Virus record (IMG/VR): IMGVR_UViG_3300027710_000020
Span: 17,856-81,855 of that record
Origin: a virus
Length of the DNA stretch: 64,000 bases
Strand: one strand, 5' to 3'
Shown here: positions 17,803 to 60,866 of the stretch, piece by piece
How positions within the stretch are numbered: the first letter of the stretch is position 1
Layout: every line of letters starts with the position of its first letter
Notes under the pieces: generated by a model
What the model was told of the DNA's origin: nothing
Seen by the model: the letters and a program-made list of their open reading frames with translations, nothing else
Databases searched by the model: none
Program-made: the position numbers and the translations under genes

Positions 17803-18574
17803 TACACTATTAGTTACGGCAGCCAGCGGTCTACAAAAGGGTATGTCTGGCACTAGCGGGACTATTTTAAAAGACAGCACAGTGGCACAAATATCTGCTG
17901 CAGTATATTATCATGCTCAAGTTGTGTCTAAACTAACAACAAGCAAGGCATTTGAAAAGAAATTCCAGTCTGTTATATTTAAACAAATAGATCAAGATTT
18001 TGGACTATATGTAGACTCTCAGTCAAGAATAAATCCTAAATCATTACACCATGTATATGAATGGAACAAGGTTGGAAATAAGGGATCTAGGCTATTTAAG
18101 TTAAGTGTCTTATCAACAGATGGCCTTTCATTTAAAATTTCTTCTAGCTTCTTGCCATCTAAATCAGCAGTGCCTAATGAATTTGGAAGTAGAAAACACG
18201 TATTTATTAGCAAAGCTTCTGTGATGGAAGCTGGAATGCCTCTAGTAATCCGCCCTAGGTTCGCAGAGCGCTTAGTATTTGAAACTAGTACTGGCGTAGT
18301 GTACATGCCTAAAGGCGCCTCTGTGACCGTTACAAGGCCAGGAGGAGGCAAGGCAACGGGAAGATTCCGAATAGCCTATGCACAATTCTTCACAGGCAAT
18401 TTAGTAAATTCATCAATTAAAAAATCTGGATTTCAGCAAATATTTAACTCATCATTAACTAAAGCAATGAGGGTTCCAGGCGATGTAAGAAAGGTTAAAT
18501 ATTCATTTAGTCCTAATACATTAAAAATGCAGGCGGACTCAGCATTAGAATTAGCATTTGGAGGGGCATCATGA
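17792..18574 (+). CDS. Tail-completion/neck protein candidate, TTG start
   Basis: The frame opens with a TTG at 17792 that overlaps the upstream stop; an ATG at 17843 is an alternative start, and neither has a strong SD. The 260 residues contain a RLVFETSTGVVYMPKGASVTV block near 162-182 and basic stretches. In head-to-tail gene order this position holds HK97 gp10-like or tail-completion proteins. No diagnostic motif is recognised. It overlaps the next gene by four bases. Confidence 0.55.
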   Translation: MDNSTLLVTAASGLQKGMSGTSGTILKDSTVAQISAAVYYHAQVVSKLTTSKAFEKKFQSVIFKQIDQDFGLYVDSQSRINPKSLHHVYEWNKVGNKGSRLFKLSVLSTDGLSFKISSSFLPSKSAVPNEFGSRKHVFISKASVMEAGMPLVIRPRFAERLVFETSTGVVYMPKGASVTVTRPGGGKATGRFRIAYAQFFTGNLVNSSIKKSGFQQIFNSSLTKAMRVPGDVRKVKYSFSPNTLKMQADSALELAFGGAS

Positions 18575-36273: not shown

Positions 36274-38580
36274 ATGCCAAAAGCATATTTAAAGAAAGAC
36301 GTAAGCGGCACAAGCAAATGGGTAGAGCTTAAGAAGATATACTTAAAAAAGAATGGAAATTGGACATCTTTAGCTACTGTGTATGTAAAAAAACTTGTGG
36401 GCACTACAAGCAAATGGGTGCAAGTTTTTTTGGGTGCTGGCCCATCACTTAATAGCTCTCCAACAATTACTCCAAGATTGGGCGGAAAAACATTTGATAT
36501 ATATGACAGCACAAATGGAAGCTGGGATGGCGCAACTACCTTTACTAGACAGTGGGTTAGATCAGACGCAGAAGCAGGCCCATTCGTAGCCATTGGTGCA
36601 GCAACTTCAGCGGCATACACAACAACATCAGATGATGATGGTAAATGGATAACAGTAACTGTACGTGCATCAGACGGCACACTTTTTAACGAAGCAAATG
36701 CTACACCAGTTAAAATAGTTAAGTATGCTCCAGTATCACTAACAACTAATGGAGGATATTATATTGGCGTAACATCACCTGGATCCCCACAACCTGGACA
36801 GACTGTAGGTATATTTAAGCAAACAGACCCAGATTGGAAAGCAACTACAGATAGGACAAATGATACATCACCAGACTCATCTCTTTTTGAGTACGAATGG
36901 AAGTGGGAGGACACTGGAGCCATACGCACAGACTACACCAGCAGCACGTATTTAATTTCAAATGATGATTTAGGACACAAGATATCAGGAAGAATTAAAG
37001 CTGTAAATACTGGTGGATCAACATTCAGTGCTTGGGCTACTCCGACTGGTACAATTGCAACAGCCCCAGTAATTGTTACGATGCCATCATGGAAAACAAC
37101 TGGTGTGCAAATTGGCAATACAATAACAGCAAATACTGGAACATACTCACCAGAGCCAGACAAAGTTTATTGGACGTTCCAGTACTATAATACTAACCGT
37201 TCAGCCTGGATACCTATATACAAATCTGATGGGACAGTACTGGGTAGCGGAACTGATACATCACATAACCAAGATCACTCGGTAGTTATACCAGCAAAAT
37301 TTTATCTTGACGGAACAAGCACTAATGTGACCGCTGTAGGTAAATTAATTAGACTTGTTACCGATTCCTCACTTGGATCAGCTGTGTCTCTACAGCATAG
37401 CACTCCAAACTTAGGGCCAATAACTGCAGTTGTAGAGACTCTTGAAAATAGAGTACCTACTGCTGTTTCTAATATATATAGAAGAATAGACGGAACCTGG
37501 ACAAAATTTGGAACTGCTACTACCAACGTAACTCTTCTTTGGTTAAATACCAGACTTAGAAATACCAGTACACAGGGAACTGCAAAACATGTGTTTTATA
37601 CAACAGATGCAGAAGATAAAACTACAGATTTTTTTAATGACATTGGAGGAACTGGACTTACCATGACCTCTTATAGATTCGGGGTTCAGGCACATGGTAT
37701 AGGCGATTACACTGGAGATGACTTTTGGTCGATAGGAACAGAAGATGAAGGGGATTATTCTGAAAATACATCTAACGTAAATCCACAGTTCCCATCTAGA
37801 CCCACTGGATTTACAGCAACAAGAATGTCTAATAGCAGAATTGATTTGGCTTGGAATGCAGCAGGAGGATCACCAACTAATTACCATTTATATTATAGTA
37901 CTGTGGGAGATTATAGTGACATTATAGATAAAAACACTACAGAAGATTATGAAATAGGAAATGTAACTAGCTCTAATAGAACTGGTTTAGCTGCAAATAC
38001 ACAATACTGGTGGTGGGTTCGTTCAAAGAACGCTACTGGAGTAAGCAGATGGTCAGCATTTGCAACAGCAACAACTGAAGCAAATCCTACTACAACTACT
38101 ACGACTACCACTACTACGACTACCACCACTACCACCACTACTACTACGACTACGCCCGCACCTACCACTACAACTACTACGCCCGCACCTACCACTACAA
38201 CTACTACGGCTGCACCTACTACGACTACCACTACTACGCCTGCACCAGTTACTCCTGCATTTACAGTTAACTCAGTGGGTAGATCTAAGAGTGGAAGAAC
38301 CTTGACTGGAACTTGGACTTACAGCATAACAGACAATGTTTATTTTATGTGGTGGAATACAAGAATAAATAATGCAACAACAAGCGGTGTTGCAAGACAC
38401 AATGCATTTAGCTCAACAATAACAGACACGACAGACTCTTATACTGATTGCGTTAATGGATCTTATCAGTTTGGTGTTCAAGGATACGGATTTAGACTAA
38501 CAGACTATACAGACATCTTTACAAATGGAACCTCAGATCGTGGTGCGTATAGATATTCTTCATCAATAACTATTCCATAA
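36274..38580 (+). CDS. Tail fibre with duplicated domain and Thr/Pro mucin-like linker
   Basis: The 768-residue protein opens with short KKxxxTSKWV repeats (~1-45) and then several Ig-like modules. A domain near ~410-510 (WLNTRLRN, SYRFGVQAHG) is followed by a fibronectin type III domain (~510-600). A threonine/proline tract spans ~605-660, made of runs of Thr broken by PAP. The final domain ~664-768 (WWNTRINN, SYQFGVQGYG) is an obvious copy of the 410-510 domain. The Thr/Pro tract resembles a mucin or cellulosome-type O-glycosylated linker. Two glycosyltransferase genes follow it, so the linker is the best candidate substrate. Receptor binding is inferred. Confidence 0.7.
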   Translation: MPKAYLKKDVSGTSKWVELKKIYLKKNGNWTSLATVYVKKLVGTTSKWVQVFLGAGPSLNSSPTITPRLGGKTFDIYDSTNGSWDGATTFTRQWVRSDAEAGPFVAIGAATSAAYTTTSDDDGKWITVTVRASDGTLFNEANATPVKIVKYAPVSLTTNGGYYIGVTSPGSPQPGQTVGIFKQTDPDWKATTDRTNDTSPDSSLFEYEWKWEDTGAIRTDYTSSTYLISNDDLGHKISGRIKAVNTGGSTFSAWATPTGTIATAPVIVTMPSWKTTGVQIGNTITANTGTYSPEPDKVYWTFQYYNTNRSAWIPIYKSDGTVLGSGTDTSHNQDHSVVIPAKFYLDGTSTNVTAVGKLIRLVTDSSLGSAVSLQHSTPNLGPITAVVETLENRVPTAVSNIYRRIDGTWTKFGTATTNVTLLWLNTRLRNTSTQGTAKHVFYTTDAEDKTTDFFNDIGGTGLTMTSYRFGVQAHGIGDYTGDDFWSIGTEDEGDYSENTSNVNPQFPSRPTGFTATRMSNSRIDLAWNAAGGSPTNYHLYYSTVGDYSDIIDKNTTEDYEIGNVTSSNRTGLAANTQYWWWVRSKNATGVSRWSAFATATTEANPTTTTTTTTTTTTTTTTTTTTTTPAPTTTTTTPAPTTTTTTAAPTTTTTTTPAPVTPAFTVNSVGRSKSGRTLTGTWTYSITDNVYFMWWNTRINNATTSGVARHNAFSSTITDTTDSYTDCVNGSYQFGVQGYGFRLTDYTDIFTNGTSDRGAYRYSSSITIP
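38152..38205 (+). repeat. Two exact 27-bp tandem repeats in the Thr linker
   Basis: The 27-base unit (9 codons, encoding TPAPTTTTT) occurs at 38152-38178 and 38179-38205 without a mismatch. Further degenerate ACT/ACC/ACG repeats flank it from about 38086 to 38247. The unit length keeps the reading frame, so copy number could vary without truncating the fibre. Confidence 0.85.
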
Positions 38581-38588
38581 GGAGAAAT

Positions 38589-39011
38589 ATGACAAAAAAA
38601 GATGACCTAAATAGAATTAAAGAAATTGAAGCTCAGCAATTATTACTTATTCCAGAGATTAAAATTCTTCGATCTTCTGTAAATAGTAATGCTCAAGACG
38701 ATACCCCGTTAGAGATATTGGAAGAAAAAATTGATGAGATTAATCTGCTTCGAAAAGAAAAAGCCTTATTGCTTTTAAATTTGGGATTTCAAATAGTTGG
38801 AGTAAGCATAGATGAGCCTTTAGCTGATACCGAAATGTGGAAACAAATAGAACTTGAAAAGGCATCACTGGAAGTATCTAATTCAAGATACTCGCTATGT
38901 ACAAATTGCCCAGAATTTGTTACAATATCTAAACAGTGTAAAGCACTCGGTGTGTTTGCAGAAGAGTATTCATCAATTGAATCTTCAAGTTGTCCTATAG
39001 GGAATTGGTAA
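38589..39011 (+). CDS. Hypothetical helical protein with C-terminal cysteines
   Basis: The first ~95 of 140 residues are helical and charged (coiled-coil-like). The C-terminus has four cysteines (CTNCPEF near 105, then single cysteines near 118 and 136) that could bind zinc or an iron-sulfur cluster. It sits between the Thr-rich fibre and the glycosyltransferase genes and overlaps the next start by one base (TAATG). Function unknown; an accessory to fibre modification is only a positional guess. Confidence 0.6.
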   Translation: MTKKDDLNRIKEIEAQQLLLIPEIKILRSSVNSNAQDDTPLEILEEKIDEINLLRKEKALLLLNLGFQIVGVSIDEPLADTEMWKQIELEKASLEVSNSRYSLCTNCPEFVTISKQCKALGVFAEEYSSIESSSCPIGNW

Positions 39012-39877
39012 TGTCAAAAATAGCTATCACTGCTTTTGTAGATAAAGGCGGAAGCTTTGTAGATGAAGTTAATCAAATGACTTTAAGTGGCAGAAGATTA
39101 GACAATAGGTTTACCTTTGTTATATTTGCTGAGCCTGAAATATGCGGCAGTATAAAAAAAAGACACAATGTATTAGTATATGAATACGAGTCTCCAAAAG
39201 ATACATACTACGAAACATATAGATATGCCAAGTCCCTGGAATTTTTAAAATCTAATAGTCACATATTAAAAGAATATGATTATTTAATAAAAACAGACAC
39301 AGACGTTTTTGTTACTGAGAATTTAAATAAGTATATATTTGATGAAAAAATATCTTTCAGGCCTGGATTTTATTCTTTAACTGAAAGATGTACCGAACAG
39401 ACTTACGAGCTGGCAAATAAATTTAATTATATTAATTATAAAAAAATGTTTAATGCTGGGGCTACCCTCATAGGCCCATCTTCAGACATCATTAATGTAA
39501 TGAATCTTTCTGATATTTTATGCAAAGACATATTTTATTATTTGTGCCCAAATGGCAGGTACGGAGATACAATAGAAGACACCTGGCTAAAGTCCTTGTA
39601 TTCTGGCACATCAACATTAATAGCTACTGAAATTGTAGTTTCTTCTTTATTTGATTCAAAAAAGTTTATTATTACAGATTCTATTGATGCTAATTGTTTT
39701 TCTGAAGATAGCCTAGATGGCATATTCCATATACATCAATGGCACGGAGAAGGAATGTATTCAAAATTTGATGCTAGGGACGGACATTACGACAATATGA
39801 ATTACGGAGACCCAGATACGATATCTGGGTACTGCCTGAATATATTTCTAGAAAATAAAAGGGAAATAAATGTCTAG
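39011..39877 (+). CDS. Glycosyltransferase-like protein (DUF7164-type)
   Basis: The ATG at 39011 overlaps the upstream stop. The 288 residues form a GT-A-like fold: a beta/alpha start AITAFVDKGGSFV, FTFVIFAEPE near 37, and a DYLIKTDTDVFV segment near 92-103 whose DTD can serve as the metal-binding DxD. A FNAGATLIGPS region near 150 and a histidine-rich IFHIHQWHGEGMYS end follow. The appearance matches phage DUF7164 proteins. The donor sugar and acceptor are unknown. Its place directly after the Thr-rich fibre suggests fibre or host-surface modification. Codon use is very AT-rich. Confidence 0.65.
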   Translation: MSKIAITAFVDKGGSFVDEVNQMTLSGRRLDNRFTFVIFAEPEICGSIKKRHNVLVYEYESPKDTYYETYRYAKSLEFLKSNSHILKEYDYLIKTDTDVFVTENLNKYIFDEKISFRPGFYSLTERCTEQTYELANKFNYINYKKMFNAGATLIGPSSDIINVMNLSDILCKDIFYYLCPNGRYGDTIEDTWLKSLYSGTSTLIATEIVVSSLFDSKKFIITDSIDANCFSEDSLDGIFHIHQWHGEGMYSKFDARDGHYDNMNYGDPDTISGYCLNIFLENKREINV

Positions 39878-40772
39878 CATATTTGTACAGATATCTTCTT
39901 TTCAAGATCGTGAACTCCCATTAACTATACTCGATTGTATCGATAAGTCCTCTGGCGAACATACAATTAATTTTGGAGTTTTTAATTGTTATTTCAAAGA
40001 AGATAAGATTAATATTCCTGATTTCAAAAACATTAAGTTTGAAGAAGCAGTTGCTCCAGATAAAATCGGGGTTGGCATAGGAAGATTTATAGCCAACTCT
40101 TTTTATGATGGAGAAGACTATTATTTGCAAATTGATTCACATAGCAGGTTTGAAAAAGACTGGGACAAGTATTTAATATCAGACTATTTATATTATAAAG
40201 AAGCAGGACTTAATCCAATACTAACGACATATCCAGCAGTTTATCTTTACGAAGAAGGCAAGATTAAGTATTTGCCAAACGATGATACTCCATACATAGG
40301 GTATCCAAATACCCCAGAGGCTCAGGCTCAGTTTTTAAAAGATAAGATATTGCCACAAGCATCTATGCATAATAAAGAAGGAAATATATTCACAAAAGGA
40401 GTTTCTGGTGCACAAATATTTGGCCCAGGGGATCTTCATATGATTGAGCCCAACAAGAAAATATTGCACTGGGGAGAAGAGACATTATACTCAGTTAGAT
40501 TTTATACACATGGATACGACCTTTTAATACCTAGAAAAAATAATATATATCACTTATATTATAACGCAGATAATGAAGATATGAGCATGAGAAAGCTACC
40601 AGGTAATTATTTTAAAAAAGAAACTGACGATCTTCTGGTAGACTCCCTGGCAGAGTTGTCTAGGATCGTGGATAATAATGTGATAGGGTATCAAGCGTTA
40701 GGGTCTAAAAGAGGGCTTGACGAATACGAAAGATATGCTAATATTAACTTTAAGACTGGAAGAATAGGATAA
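39870..40772 (+). CDS. Skp1-type GlcNAc-transferase-like glycosyltransferase
   Basis: The 300-residue product begins SIFVQISSFQDRELPLTILD (residues 2-21), the signature start of the PF11397 (GlcNAc) family. GEDYYLQIDSHSRFEKDWD near 84-102 supplies the DxH nucleotide-sugar motif, and SGAQIFGPG near 175 and LHWGEETLYSVRFYTHGYDL near 200-219 also match. Characterised eukaryotic members add GlcNAc to hydroxyproline of Skp1. The gene overlaps the preceding glycosyltransferase by eight bases. With a prolyl-hydroxylase-like gene at 60108 and a Thr/Pro-rich fibre upstream, protein O-glycosylation is plausible. Confidence 0.75.
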   Translation: MSSIFVQISSFQDRELPLTILDCIDKSSGEHTINFGVFNCYFKEDKINIPDFKNIKFEEAVAPDKIGVGIGRFIANSFYDGEDYYLQIDSHSRFEKDWDKYLISDYLYYKEAGLNPILTTYPAVYLYEEGKIKYLPNDDTPYIGYPNTPEAQAQFLKDKILPQASMHNKEGNIFTKGVSGAQIFGPGDLHMIEPNKKILHWGEETLYSVRFYTHGYDLLIPRKNNIYHLYYNADNEDMSMRKLPGNYFKKETDDLLVDSLAELSRIVDNNVIGYQALGSKRGLDEYERYANINFKTGRIG

Positions 40773-60107: not shown

Positions 60108-60866
60108 ATGGAAATCTTAGAAACTGCAATACCTCAAGTTCAGATTATTAAAAATTTTATTAGCCCAGAAGAGGTAGAAACTATTAACTCTGCTCTATGT
60201 TCTCTTTCCGAATCTGACTGGAATTCTTTTGATGCAGAAAGACGAATTCAAAGATATAAGGATTTAAAGAAAAATAAAGCTGAAATTTCAGGAAGCAACC
60301 CTACTGGTAGAAAAGATGCCTGGGACGGAATGACTATAGGAACAACAGATATTCAACAAGCTAGACTTATGTACCCAAACTTTCCACTAGACCTTGTTTT
60401 TGATATGGAAAAGAGAATGCAATCTACTGCTGAAGAAATGTTTGGAGAAGATCTGCTAGTCCAGCTATCGGGACTTCATAGATGGAGAGTTGGTAGACTT
60501 CAGGAGCCACACATTGATTACTTTGACCCAGAGGAAGAGTATGATTGGGAAGAGCTAGCTAATTATAGGATATGGCCAGAAAGCGCAGAAAAGTTTGGTA
60601 AAACATTTTTTGATAAACATTATTCAAGCTTAGTTTATTTTAATGACGACTATGTAGGCGGATCTCTTTACATGCCACAATACGATTTTGAAATTCAGCC
60701 AGAGCCAGGAATGCTTATTTCATTTAAGGGAGACTCAAAGCATCTTCATGGTGTTCGTGAGATAACAGCAGGAGTCAGACATACGCTTTCTGTTTTTTGG
60801 ACTAAGAAATCTTGGTATGAAATTCCAGGAAACTCACAAGTTTTTCCAGGAAGACACCCAAAATAA
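60108..60866 (+). CDS. 2OG-Fe(II) oxygenase, prolyl 4-hydroxylase-like
   Basis: The 252-residue protein has an early FISPEEVETINSALCSL segment (~17-33). The iron/2OG core is EPHIDYFDPEEEYDW (~137-151, HxD motif), SLVYFNDDYVGGSLYMP (~178-194), PGMLISFKGDSKHLHGVR (~205-222, distal His) and a GVRHTLSVFW end with the 2OG-binding Arg near 226-235. This matches P4H-type dioxygenases that hydroxylate proline or similar residues. Together with the GlcNAc-transferase-like gene at 39870 it suggests protein modification. Other substrates (nucleic acid, small molecule) are possible. Confidence 0.82.
   Translation: MEILETAIPQVQIIKNFISPEEVETINSALCSLSESDWNSFDAERRIQRYKDLKKNKAEISGSNPTGRKDAWDGMTIGTTDIQQARLMYPNFPLDLVFDMEKRMQSTAEEMFGEDLLVQLSGLHRWRVGRLQEPHIDYFDPEEEYDWEELANYRIWPESAEKFGKTFFDKHYSSLVYFNDDYVGGSLYMPQYDFEIQPEPGMLISFKGDSKHLHGVREITAGVRHTLSVFWTKKSWYEIPGNSQVFPGRHPK

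Follow-up and report, generated by a model that had tools for sequence, protein, structure and literature searches.

Does a bacterial virus glycosylate its own tail fibre, and on which residue? The question is raised by a freshwater phage (IMG/VR record IMGVR_UViG_3300027710_000020, 81,855 bases in total) of which we analyzed positions 17,856 to 81,855, a stretch of 64,000 nucleotides hereafter called the window. The last gene of the tail module encodes a fibre with a threonine-rich, mucin-like linker, and directly downstream lie the genes for a small cysteine-motif protein and for two predicted glycosyltransferases, a DUF7164 protein and a member of PF11397 (Table 1). The preliminary description of this locus had put forward a pathway in which a prolyl 4-hydroxylase (P4H)-like 2-oxoglutarate (2OG)-Fe(II) oxygenase, encoded elsewhere in the window, and the PF11397 enzyme act on the fibre, as in the eukaryotic addition of N-acetylglucosamine (GlcNAc) to hydroxyproline. 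On comparative grounds, it appears likely that the threonine linker of the fibre is glycosylated by the adjacent enzymes, because threonine runs and glycosyltransferase genes co-occur far above background in slots of the phage lineage, at loci chosen by DNA pattern and in cultured phages. The part of the proposal that has glycosyltransferases acting on a mucin-like linker is thus upheld by three co-occurrence tests, whereas its hydroxyproline step is not.

Threonine runs and glycosyltransferase genes in three comparisons

The lineage was surveyed at the slot that follows the last fibre gene and precedes the metallophosphoesterase gene. A first set of 80 loci was picked by the metallophosphoesterase, blind to fibre and enzymes; a second set of 80, obtained with a diverged query, had one locus in common with it, and merging of similar fibres left 91 distinct slots. 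PF11397 genes were present in 5 of the 6 slots with a threonine-run fibre versus 3 of the 85 others (Fisher p=7e-6, a descriptive value like the other slot p-values). The sixth slot, in L190, has an Ala/Thr-rich stretch that differs in position and is unlike the other linkers. The pairing, already present in the first set of loci, turned up again in the second (L398, L431).

These slots bear on the simplest alternative, namely that the threonine run is a neutral, merely flexible spacer that arose by repeat slippage, with the enzymes being unrelated cargo. Consistent with slippage, a 27-bp unit is partly repeated within the linker DNA, and the linker length differs among relatives. However, the linker threonine codons are mixed (ACT 22, ACG 8, ACC 8, ACA 3), any modifying enzyme is found in only 1 of the 71 slots without a linker, and threonine tails recur at the exact C-termini of capsid and tail proteins beside a glycosyltransferase (see below), which makes this alternative highly improbable.

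Loci were also chosen by DNA pattern alone: two patterns for broken threonine runs yielded 210 stretches, and the most frequent neighbour families at these loci were glycosyltransferases, namely a family without a Pfam assignment (41 loci, a group joined with radical SAM proteins into one connected group via a fusion), the GT2 family (33 loci) and PF11397 (15 loci). The Pfam-less family, for which the Pfam search gave no match even at E 10, has a confidently predicted GT-A fold (pLDDT 95.7), with UGGT and glycogenin as the best Protein Data Bank (PDB) matches; the label 'HPAT-like', given provisionally to this family, was not confirmed and is not claimed here. In successive kilobases downstream of the runs, glycosyltransferase genes accounted for 55/234, 19/140, 4/93, 1/90 and 3/76, and for none beyond 5 kb. 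A glycosyltransferase gene lies within 2.5 kb at 55 of the 110 threonine-run loci with at least 2 kb of downstream sequence, compared with 0 of 26 random contigs, and after clustering at 50% identity it is found at 35 of 70 gene clusters. With the close relatives of the window excluded, the Pfam search detected PF11397 in 5 of 50 threonine-run records.

The reverse test started from the enzyme. The Pfam-less GT-A family is represented by 74 records in the phage collection; 16 of the loci were read, and clear threonine-rich stretches were present in 15, mostly in the gene directly upstream of the enzyme. The carriers in these cultured phages are often the capsid or the major tail protein, with threonine tails at the exact C-termini. 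The stretch resides in the major tail protein of phiFL1A, phiFL2A and EfsPF36, in the capsid protein of 4995_1 (TTTTTTKPTTTTTTTQA) and CHPC836, and in small threonine-rich proteins of PLE3, Iacchus and SA2; in 1706 and P1046, orf13 and the capsid protein carry it; phage 521B has a (TTVAP)n repeat, and phage 9183 is a weak case, with 8 threonines in 16 residues at the end of the major tail protein. Among five controls picked by hand (bIL286, phiFL3A, phiFL4A, bIL309 and TP901-1), the last four encode neither the enzyme nor threonine runs in the stretches examined. The best single comparison, a natural experiment, is provided by Lactococcus phage CHPC836 and bIL286, whose capsid and major tail proteins are 92% and 91% identical, respectively. 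In CHPC836, the enzyme gene follows the capsid gene, and the capsid and major tail proteins, encoded about 2.4 kb apart, carry the tails TTTTTTQATTTTTSHA / STTTTTTTHA; bIL286 has neither the tails nor the enzyme.

This pair of phages also bears on the possibility of hitch-hiking, whereby the fibre C-terminus and the downstream genes would be swapped as one block and the enzymes would modify host glycans or some other protein. The fibre slot is indeed a hot spot of swapping with variable gene content, the enzyme is retained without the linker in one relative of the window (L004), and bacterial relatives of PF11397 are rarely found near threonine runs. Nevertheless, the pairing recurs with unrelated enzyme families (PF11397, the GT2 family, the Pfam-less GT-A family and DUF7164) and with unrelated carriers, and transfer of a block at one end could not explain how two genes some distance apart in CHPC836 both gained threonine tails along with the enzyme. 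We therefore regard hitch-hiking as unlikely.

Several observations weigh against glycosylation of the linker by its neighbours. About half of the threonine-run loci have no recognised glycosyltransferase nearby. The profiles used to recognise neighbour families were derived from these same neighbours (up to 6 kb), although the downstream fall inside these 6 kb does not depend on how the profiles were built. The linker classes of the slots were written after the table had been seen, which is why the slot p-values are descriptive. Among the bacterial relatives of PF11397 (L461-L503; SAR86, Magnetococcales and others), just 1 of 43 is located near a threonine run, so the family must have other acceptors too. 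Finally, the preliminary description had singled out glycosyltransferases conserved in phages that lack a Thr/Pro fibre as evidence against its proposal, and one such relative was found. Close relatives of the window PF11397 gene are present on four contigs, three of which (100%, 90% and 90% identity) also encode a threonine-run fibre and DUF7164; the fourth, L004, encodes a PF11397 protein that is 76-77% identical, yet has neither a threonine run nor DUF7164. However, only the first ~245 residues of its fibre are common to the window fibre (56% identity), so its C-terminal portion has been replaced.

The fibre, its linker and the downstream enzymes

The linker separates an fn3-like region (residues 535-602, a weak Ig/fn3-type Pfam match) from the distal fibre domain, and its first 50 residues include 41 threonines, compared with 16% threonine in the rest of the protein, whereas prolines are few. 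The Thr/Pro linker with PAP units among threonine runs is thus present as previously described, and it has the form of a threonine-run acceptor with proline nearby, as in mucin-type threonine O-glycosylation systems. Every gene named in the preliminary description was found at the position given there. The fibre gene, the cysteine-motif gene and the two glycosyltransferase genes are encoded on one strand, with their ends overlapping or closely spaced.

Table 1. Positions in the window of the fibre, its parts and the predicted modification enzymes
Feature	Position	Strand	Basis
Tail-fibre protein, 768 amino acids, last gene of tail module	36274..38580	+	Open reading frame; after tail genes, before metallophosphoesterase and DnaB
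Mucin-like linker, fibre residues 606-658, proposed glycosylation substrate	38089..38247	+	T22-PAP-T6-PAP-T6-AAP-T7-PAP
Distal fibre domain, residues 675-768	38296..38577	+	Paralogue of fibre residues 403-504 (internal BLASTP, 36.5%, E 9e-9)
Protein of 140 amino acids, C-terminal Cys motif (CxxCP..C..CPIGNW)	38589..39011	+	phrog_13558, DUF6171-like; between fibre and glycosyltransferases
DUF7164 protein with DTD motif, predicted GT-A glycosyltransferase	39011..39877	+	Pfam E 1.8e-21
PF11397 protein (GT60-like GlcNAc transferase), proposed to initiate on Thr	39870..40772	+	Pfam E 3.4e-33
DxH motif (D89-S-H91) of the PF11397 protein	40134..40142	+	D89 and H91 invariant in alignment
2OG-Fe(II) oxygenase, predicted, prolyl-hydroxylase-like	60108..60866	+	PF13640, 27.5 bits, threshold 27

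Both enzyme genes of the preliminary description, a DxD glycosyltransferase-like gene followed by a PF11397-like gene, scored above the curated cut-off of a Pfam profile. The former matches Pfam DUF7164 at 76.5 bits (cut-off 27), besides a weak Galactosyl_T match; it has a DTD motif and is tentatively predicted to adopt a GT-A fold: the top PDB matches of its low-confidence model (pLDDT 58.5, pTM 0.65) are ABO-type transferases of GT6 (prob 1.00, E 3e-5, TM 0.41-0.49). A sequence search of the PDB with this protein returned antibody and other chance matches only. The second protein scores 116 bits against PF11397, far above the cut-off of 21, and gave no match in the PDB sequence search; D89xH91, W98-D99 and E203-E204 are invariant in an alignment with 15 relatives, the DxH and EE motifs being of catalytic type. 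The DUF7164 and PF11397 pair is found again after a threonine-run fibre in L318, a far relative of the window phage (metallophosphoesterase identity of 49%).

The small protein encoded between the fibre and these enzymes, which the preliminary description did not mention, is proposed to be an accessory of the modification cassette. Its cysteine motif is present in 18 of 26 enzyme-bearing slots versus 10 of 118 other slots (slots not deduplicated). A protein with this motif (CxxCP..C..CPiGkW) also constitutes the C-terminus of a GT2-family protein in L308. Other genes accompany the enzymes as well: a radical SAM/SPASM-type protein is encoded directly before PF11397 in several threonine-run loci (L084:6357-7361, L196:5947-6957, L239:7151-8155) and is fused to the Pfam-less GT-A family in L257 and L325, and an NAD-dependent epimerase gene often follows PF11397 in threonine-run loci.

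The fibres of the window and L159, and of L196, L398, L431 and L318, show little or no detectable similarity to each other, and the respective PF11397 proteins are only 39-58% identical, whereas the metallophosphoesterases of the window and L196 are 95% identical. Because the fibres are largely unrelated and PF11397 is far more divergent than this core gene, sequence comparison argues for the pairing having arisen or been transferred several times.

From the tail genes through metallophosphoesterase, DnaB helicase, primase and SSB to DNA polymerase, the gene order is the same as in Streptomyces phage Blueeyedbeauty (Stanwilliamsviridae), and the DnaB proteins of the two phages are 67% identical; from this match in gene order and DnaB, the host of the window phage is probably an actinobacterium. 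Unlike the window phage, Blueeyedbeauty has no annotated glycosyltransferase in the slot between the fibre and the metallophosphoesterase, its annotated glycosyltransferases being located elsewhere. Among cultured phages, no relatives of the window DUF7164 protein or of the window 2OG oxygenase were found, and the PF11397 query retrieved nothing beyond two Stenotrophomonas phages (23% identity).

2OG oxygenases and the hydroxyproline question

The window does encode the 2OG oxygenase on which the preliminary description relied, and prolyl-hydroxylase-like is a fair designation for it, although the Pfam match is weak (Table 1); the best PDB sequence match is prolyl 3-hydroxylase 1 (E 8.6e-6), followed by a bacterial P4H. 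The gene stands alone, 19 kb from the glycosyltransferases. In the lineage, 36 of 50 records have 2OG genes, with as many as 13 matches in a single record, so finding such a gene in the window says little. Such matches are often clustered (G057, G085, G090 and others). A 2OG gene lies within 2.5 kb at only 1 of the 110 threonine-run loci and in none of the six threonine-run slots of the lineage test. In view of these counts, hydroxyproline as the attachment point on the window fibre was rejected as the leading reading, and the P4H-like gene is not linked to the transferase and the substrate. Two further genes close to the oxygenase gene are of note. A small histone-like protein with AKKAPAKK repeats (window:58877-59086) is another conceivable substrate, and a 797-residue protein with an apparent signal peptide, a PA14 domain and a long Ala-rich region is encoded downstream (window:61115-63508).

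In the sister phages, 2OG oxygenases are found with other kinds of linkers. All 5 slots behind fibres with proline repeats (FFPP excluded) hold a 2OG gene, compared with 5 of the 86 others (p=5e-6), a pairing that was likewise seen in the first set of loci and recurred in the second (L404, L410, L421). The closest relatives found for the window oxygenase (41% identity, nearly full length) are encoded directly after fibres with PPVNPPSPP or PPASSPP linkers (L201-L206). The genes after the (PPVV)n fibre of L421 include GT61, two PF13640 oxygenases and a PF11397 member (E 1e-19). This locus (L421:1291-8745), which also holds DUF6065 and a methyltransferase, is a candidate hydroxyproline-glycosylation cassette. 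Slots with NTI/NTV repeats contain 2OG genes in 4 of 4 cases. Where a fibre ends in a long (NTI)n, (NTV)n or (ATQNTI)n repeat together with a Hint-like domain, between one and three 2OG oxygenase genes come next (L171:3833-8505, L212, L412:5495-8706, L213:2884-8685). Enzymes are present in 1 of 5 slots with FFPP linkers; (FFPP)n-linker fibres were seen in L173, L175, L176, L193, L200, L209 and L427, mostly with no enzyme in the slot. L409 has a Pro/Asp/Phe/Thr linker and no enzyme in the slot.

These loci provide the arguments for a Skp1-type pathway in the window phage, in which the oxygenase would hydroxylate the PAP prolines and PF11397 would add GlcNAc to hydroxyproline: the linker contains prolines, the closest relatives of the oxygenase directly follow proline-repeat fibres, as 2OG genes generally do in such slots, and L421 combines oxygenases with PF11397. 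However, the distance of 19 kb, the wide distribution of 2OG genes in the lineage, their near absence next to threonine runs and a linker with 41 threonines and few prolines render this pathway quite improbable for the window fibre. Judging from its gene content, the P4H plus PF11397 pathway may exist in a sister phage rather than in the window phage. A broader, tentative possibility is a modular linker code, in which threonine runs would be matched with glycosyltransferases and proline or NTI repeats with 2OG oxygenases, the prolines of L421-like fibres being hydroxylated and then glycosylated.

A proposed route and its relation to known systems

For the acceptor residue, the sugar added, the sequence of enzyme action and the function in the virion, we infer the following. 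The cassette would serve mucin-type O-glycosylation of a virion protein, with the enzymes encoded by the phage itself. After translation, the PF11397 enzyme would transfer N-acetylhexosamine directly to the linker threonines, with no need for hydroxyproline; the donor would most likely be UDP-GlcNAc, yielding alpha-GlcNAc. The DUF7164 enzyme would then add a further hexose to this sugar, an order suggested by the match of its model to ABO-type GT6 transferases, which extend a sugar, and the small cysteine-motif protein would probably assist. Glycosylation would turn the disordered threonine run into a stiff, protease-resistant, sugar-coated stalk leading from the fn3-like region to the distal domain.

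The closest known chemistry is that of GT60, of which we take PF11397 to be the matching Pfam family. A GT60 enzyme of Trypanosoma cruzi transfers alpha-GlcNAc from UDP-GlcNAc, in the presence of Mn2+, onto threonines of KPPTTTTTTTTKPP (PMC3769586), and the Golgi mucin-type enzyme has a relative in the enzyme that initiates Skp1 modification on hydroxyproline in Dictyostelium (PMC8724618). Because the related T. cruzi enzyme modifies threonine, PF11397 would not depend on hydroxyproline. The likeness to TcOGNT-2 of T. cruzi and Gnt2 of Dictyostelium extends to the acceptor, threonine runs with nearby proline as in KPPTTTTTTTTKPP, to the nucleotide-sugar donor and to the addition of further sugars by other transferases (PMC3769586, PMC8724618). 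These, however, are eukaryotic Golgi enzymes acting on secreted mucins, whereas the phage gene lies beside its presumed virion substrate and its activity is predicted. The Skp1 P4H/Gnt1 pathway resembles the phage system in the related family of its initiating transferase and in the presence of a 2OG oxygenase in the same genome, and L421 has both after a proline-repeat fibre; it differs in that the window oxygenase is distant from the transferases and the linker is mostly threonine.

Among phages, Che8 and Rita, which infect mycobacteria, are said to encode glycosyltransferases that glycosylate virion proteins (PMC11256854, citing Freeman 2023). As proposed for the window, the enzymes are phage-encoded and the targets are virion proteins, but there the targets are capsid proteins of another phage group, and no description of a threonine-run substrate or of its adjacency to the enzyme was found. 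Each on its own, GT60-type chemistry and the glycosylation of phage virions are already known, whereas a literature search covering few subscription journals found no account of phage threonine tails encoded beside a glycosyltransferase gene.

To our knowledge, reports of virion glycosylation concern only a few phages. If the proposed function is correct, a threonine run beside a glycosyltransferase gene would be a signature that predicts both a glycosylated virion protein and its enzyme, and this signature would span phages of freshwater actinobacteria-like hosts, Enterococcus, Lactococcus, Lactobacillus, Staphylococcus and Chryseobacterium. Mucin-type chemistry would then be in use by bacterial viruses, and cultured pairs such as CHPC836 and bIL286 make the pairing testable. 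The pairs of proline repeats and 2OG oxygenases would add phage protein hydroxylation, and a linker code with L421-type chemistry, if it exists, would parallel in bacterial viruses the chemistry of plant extensins and Skp1.

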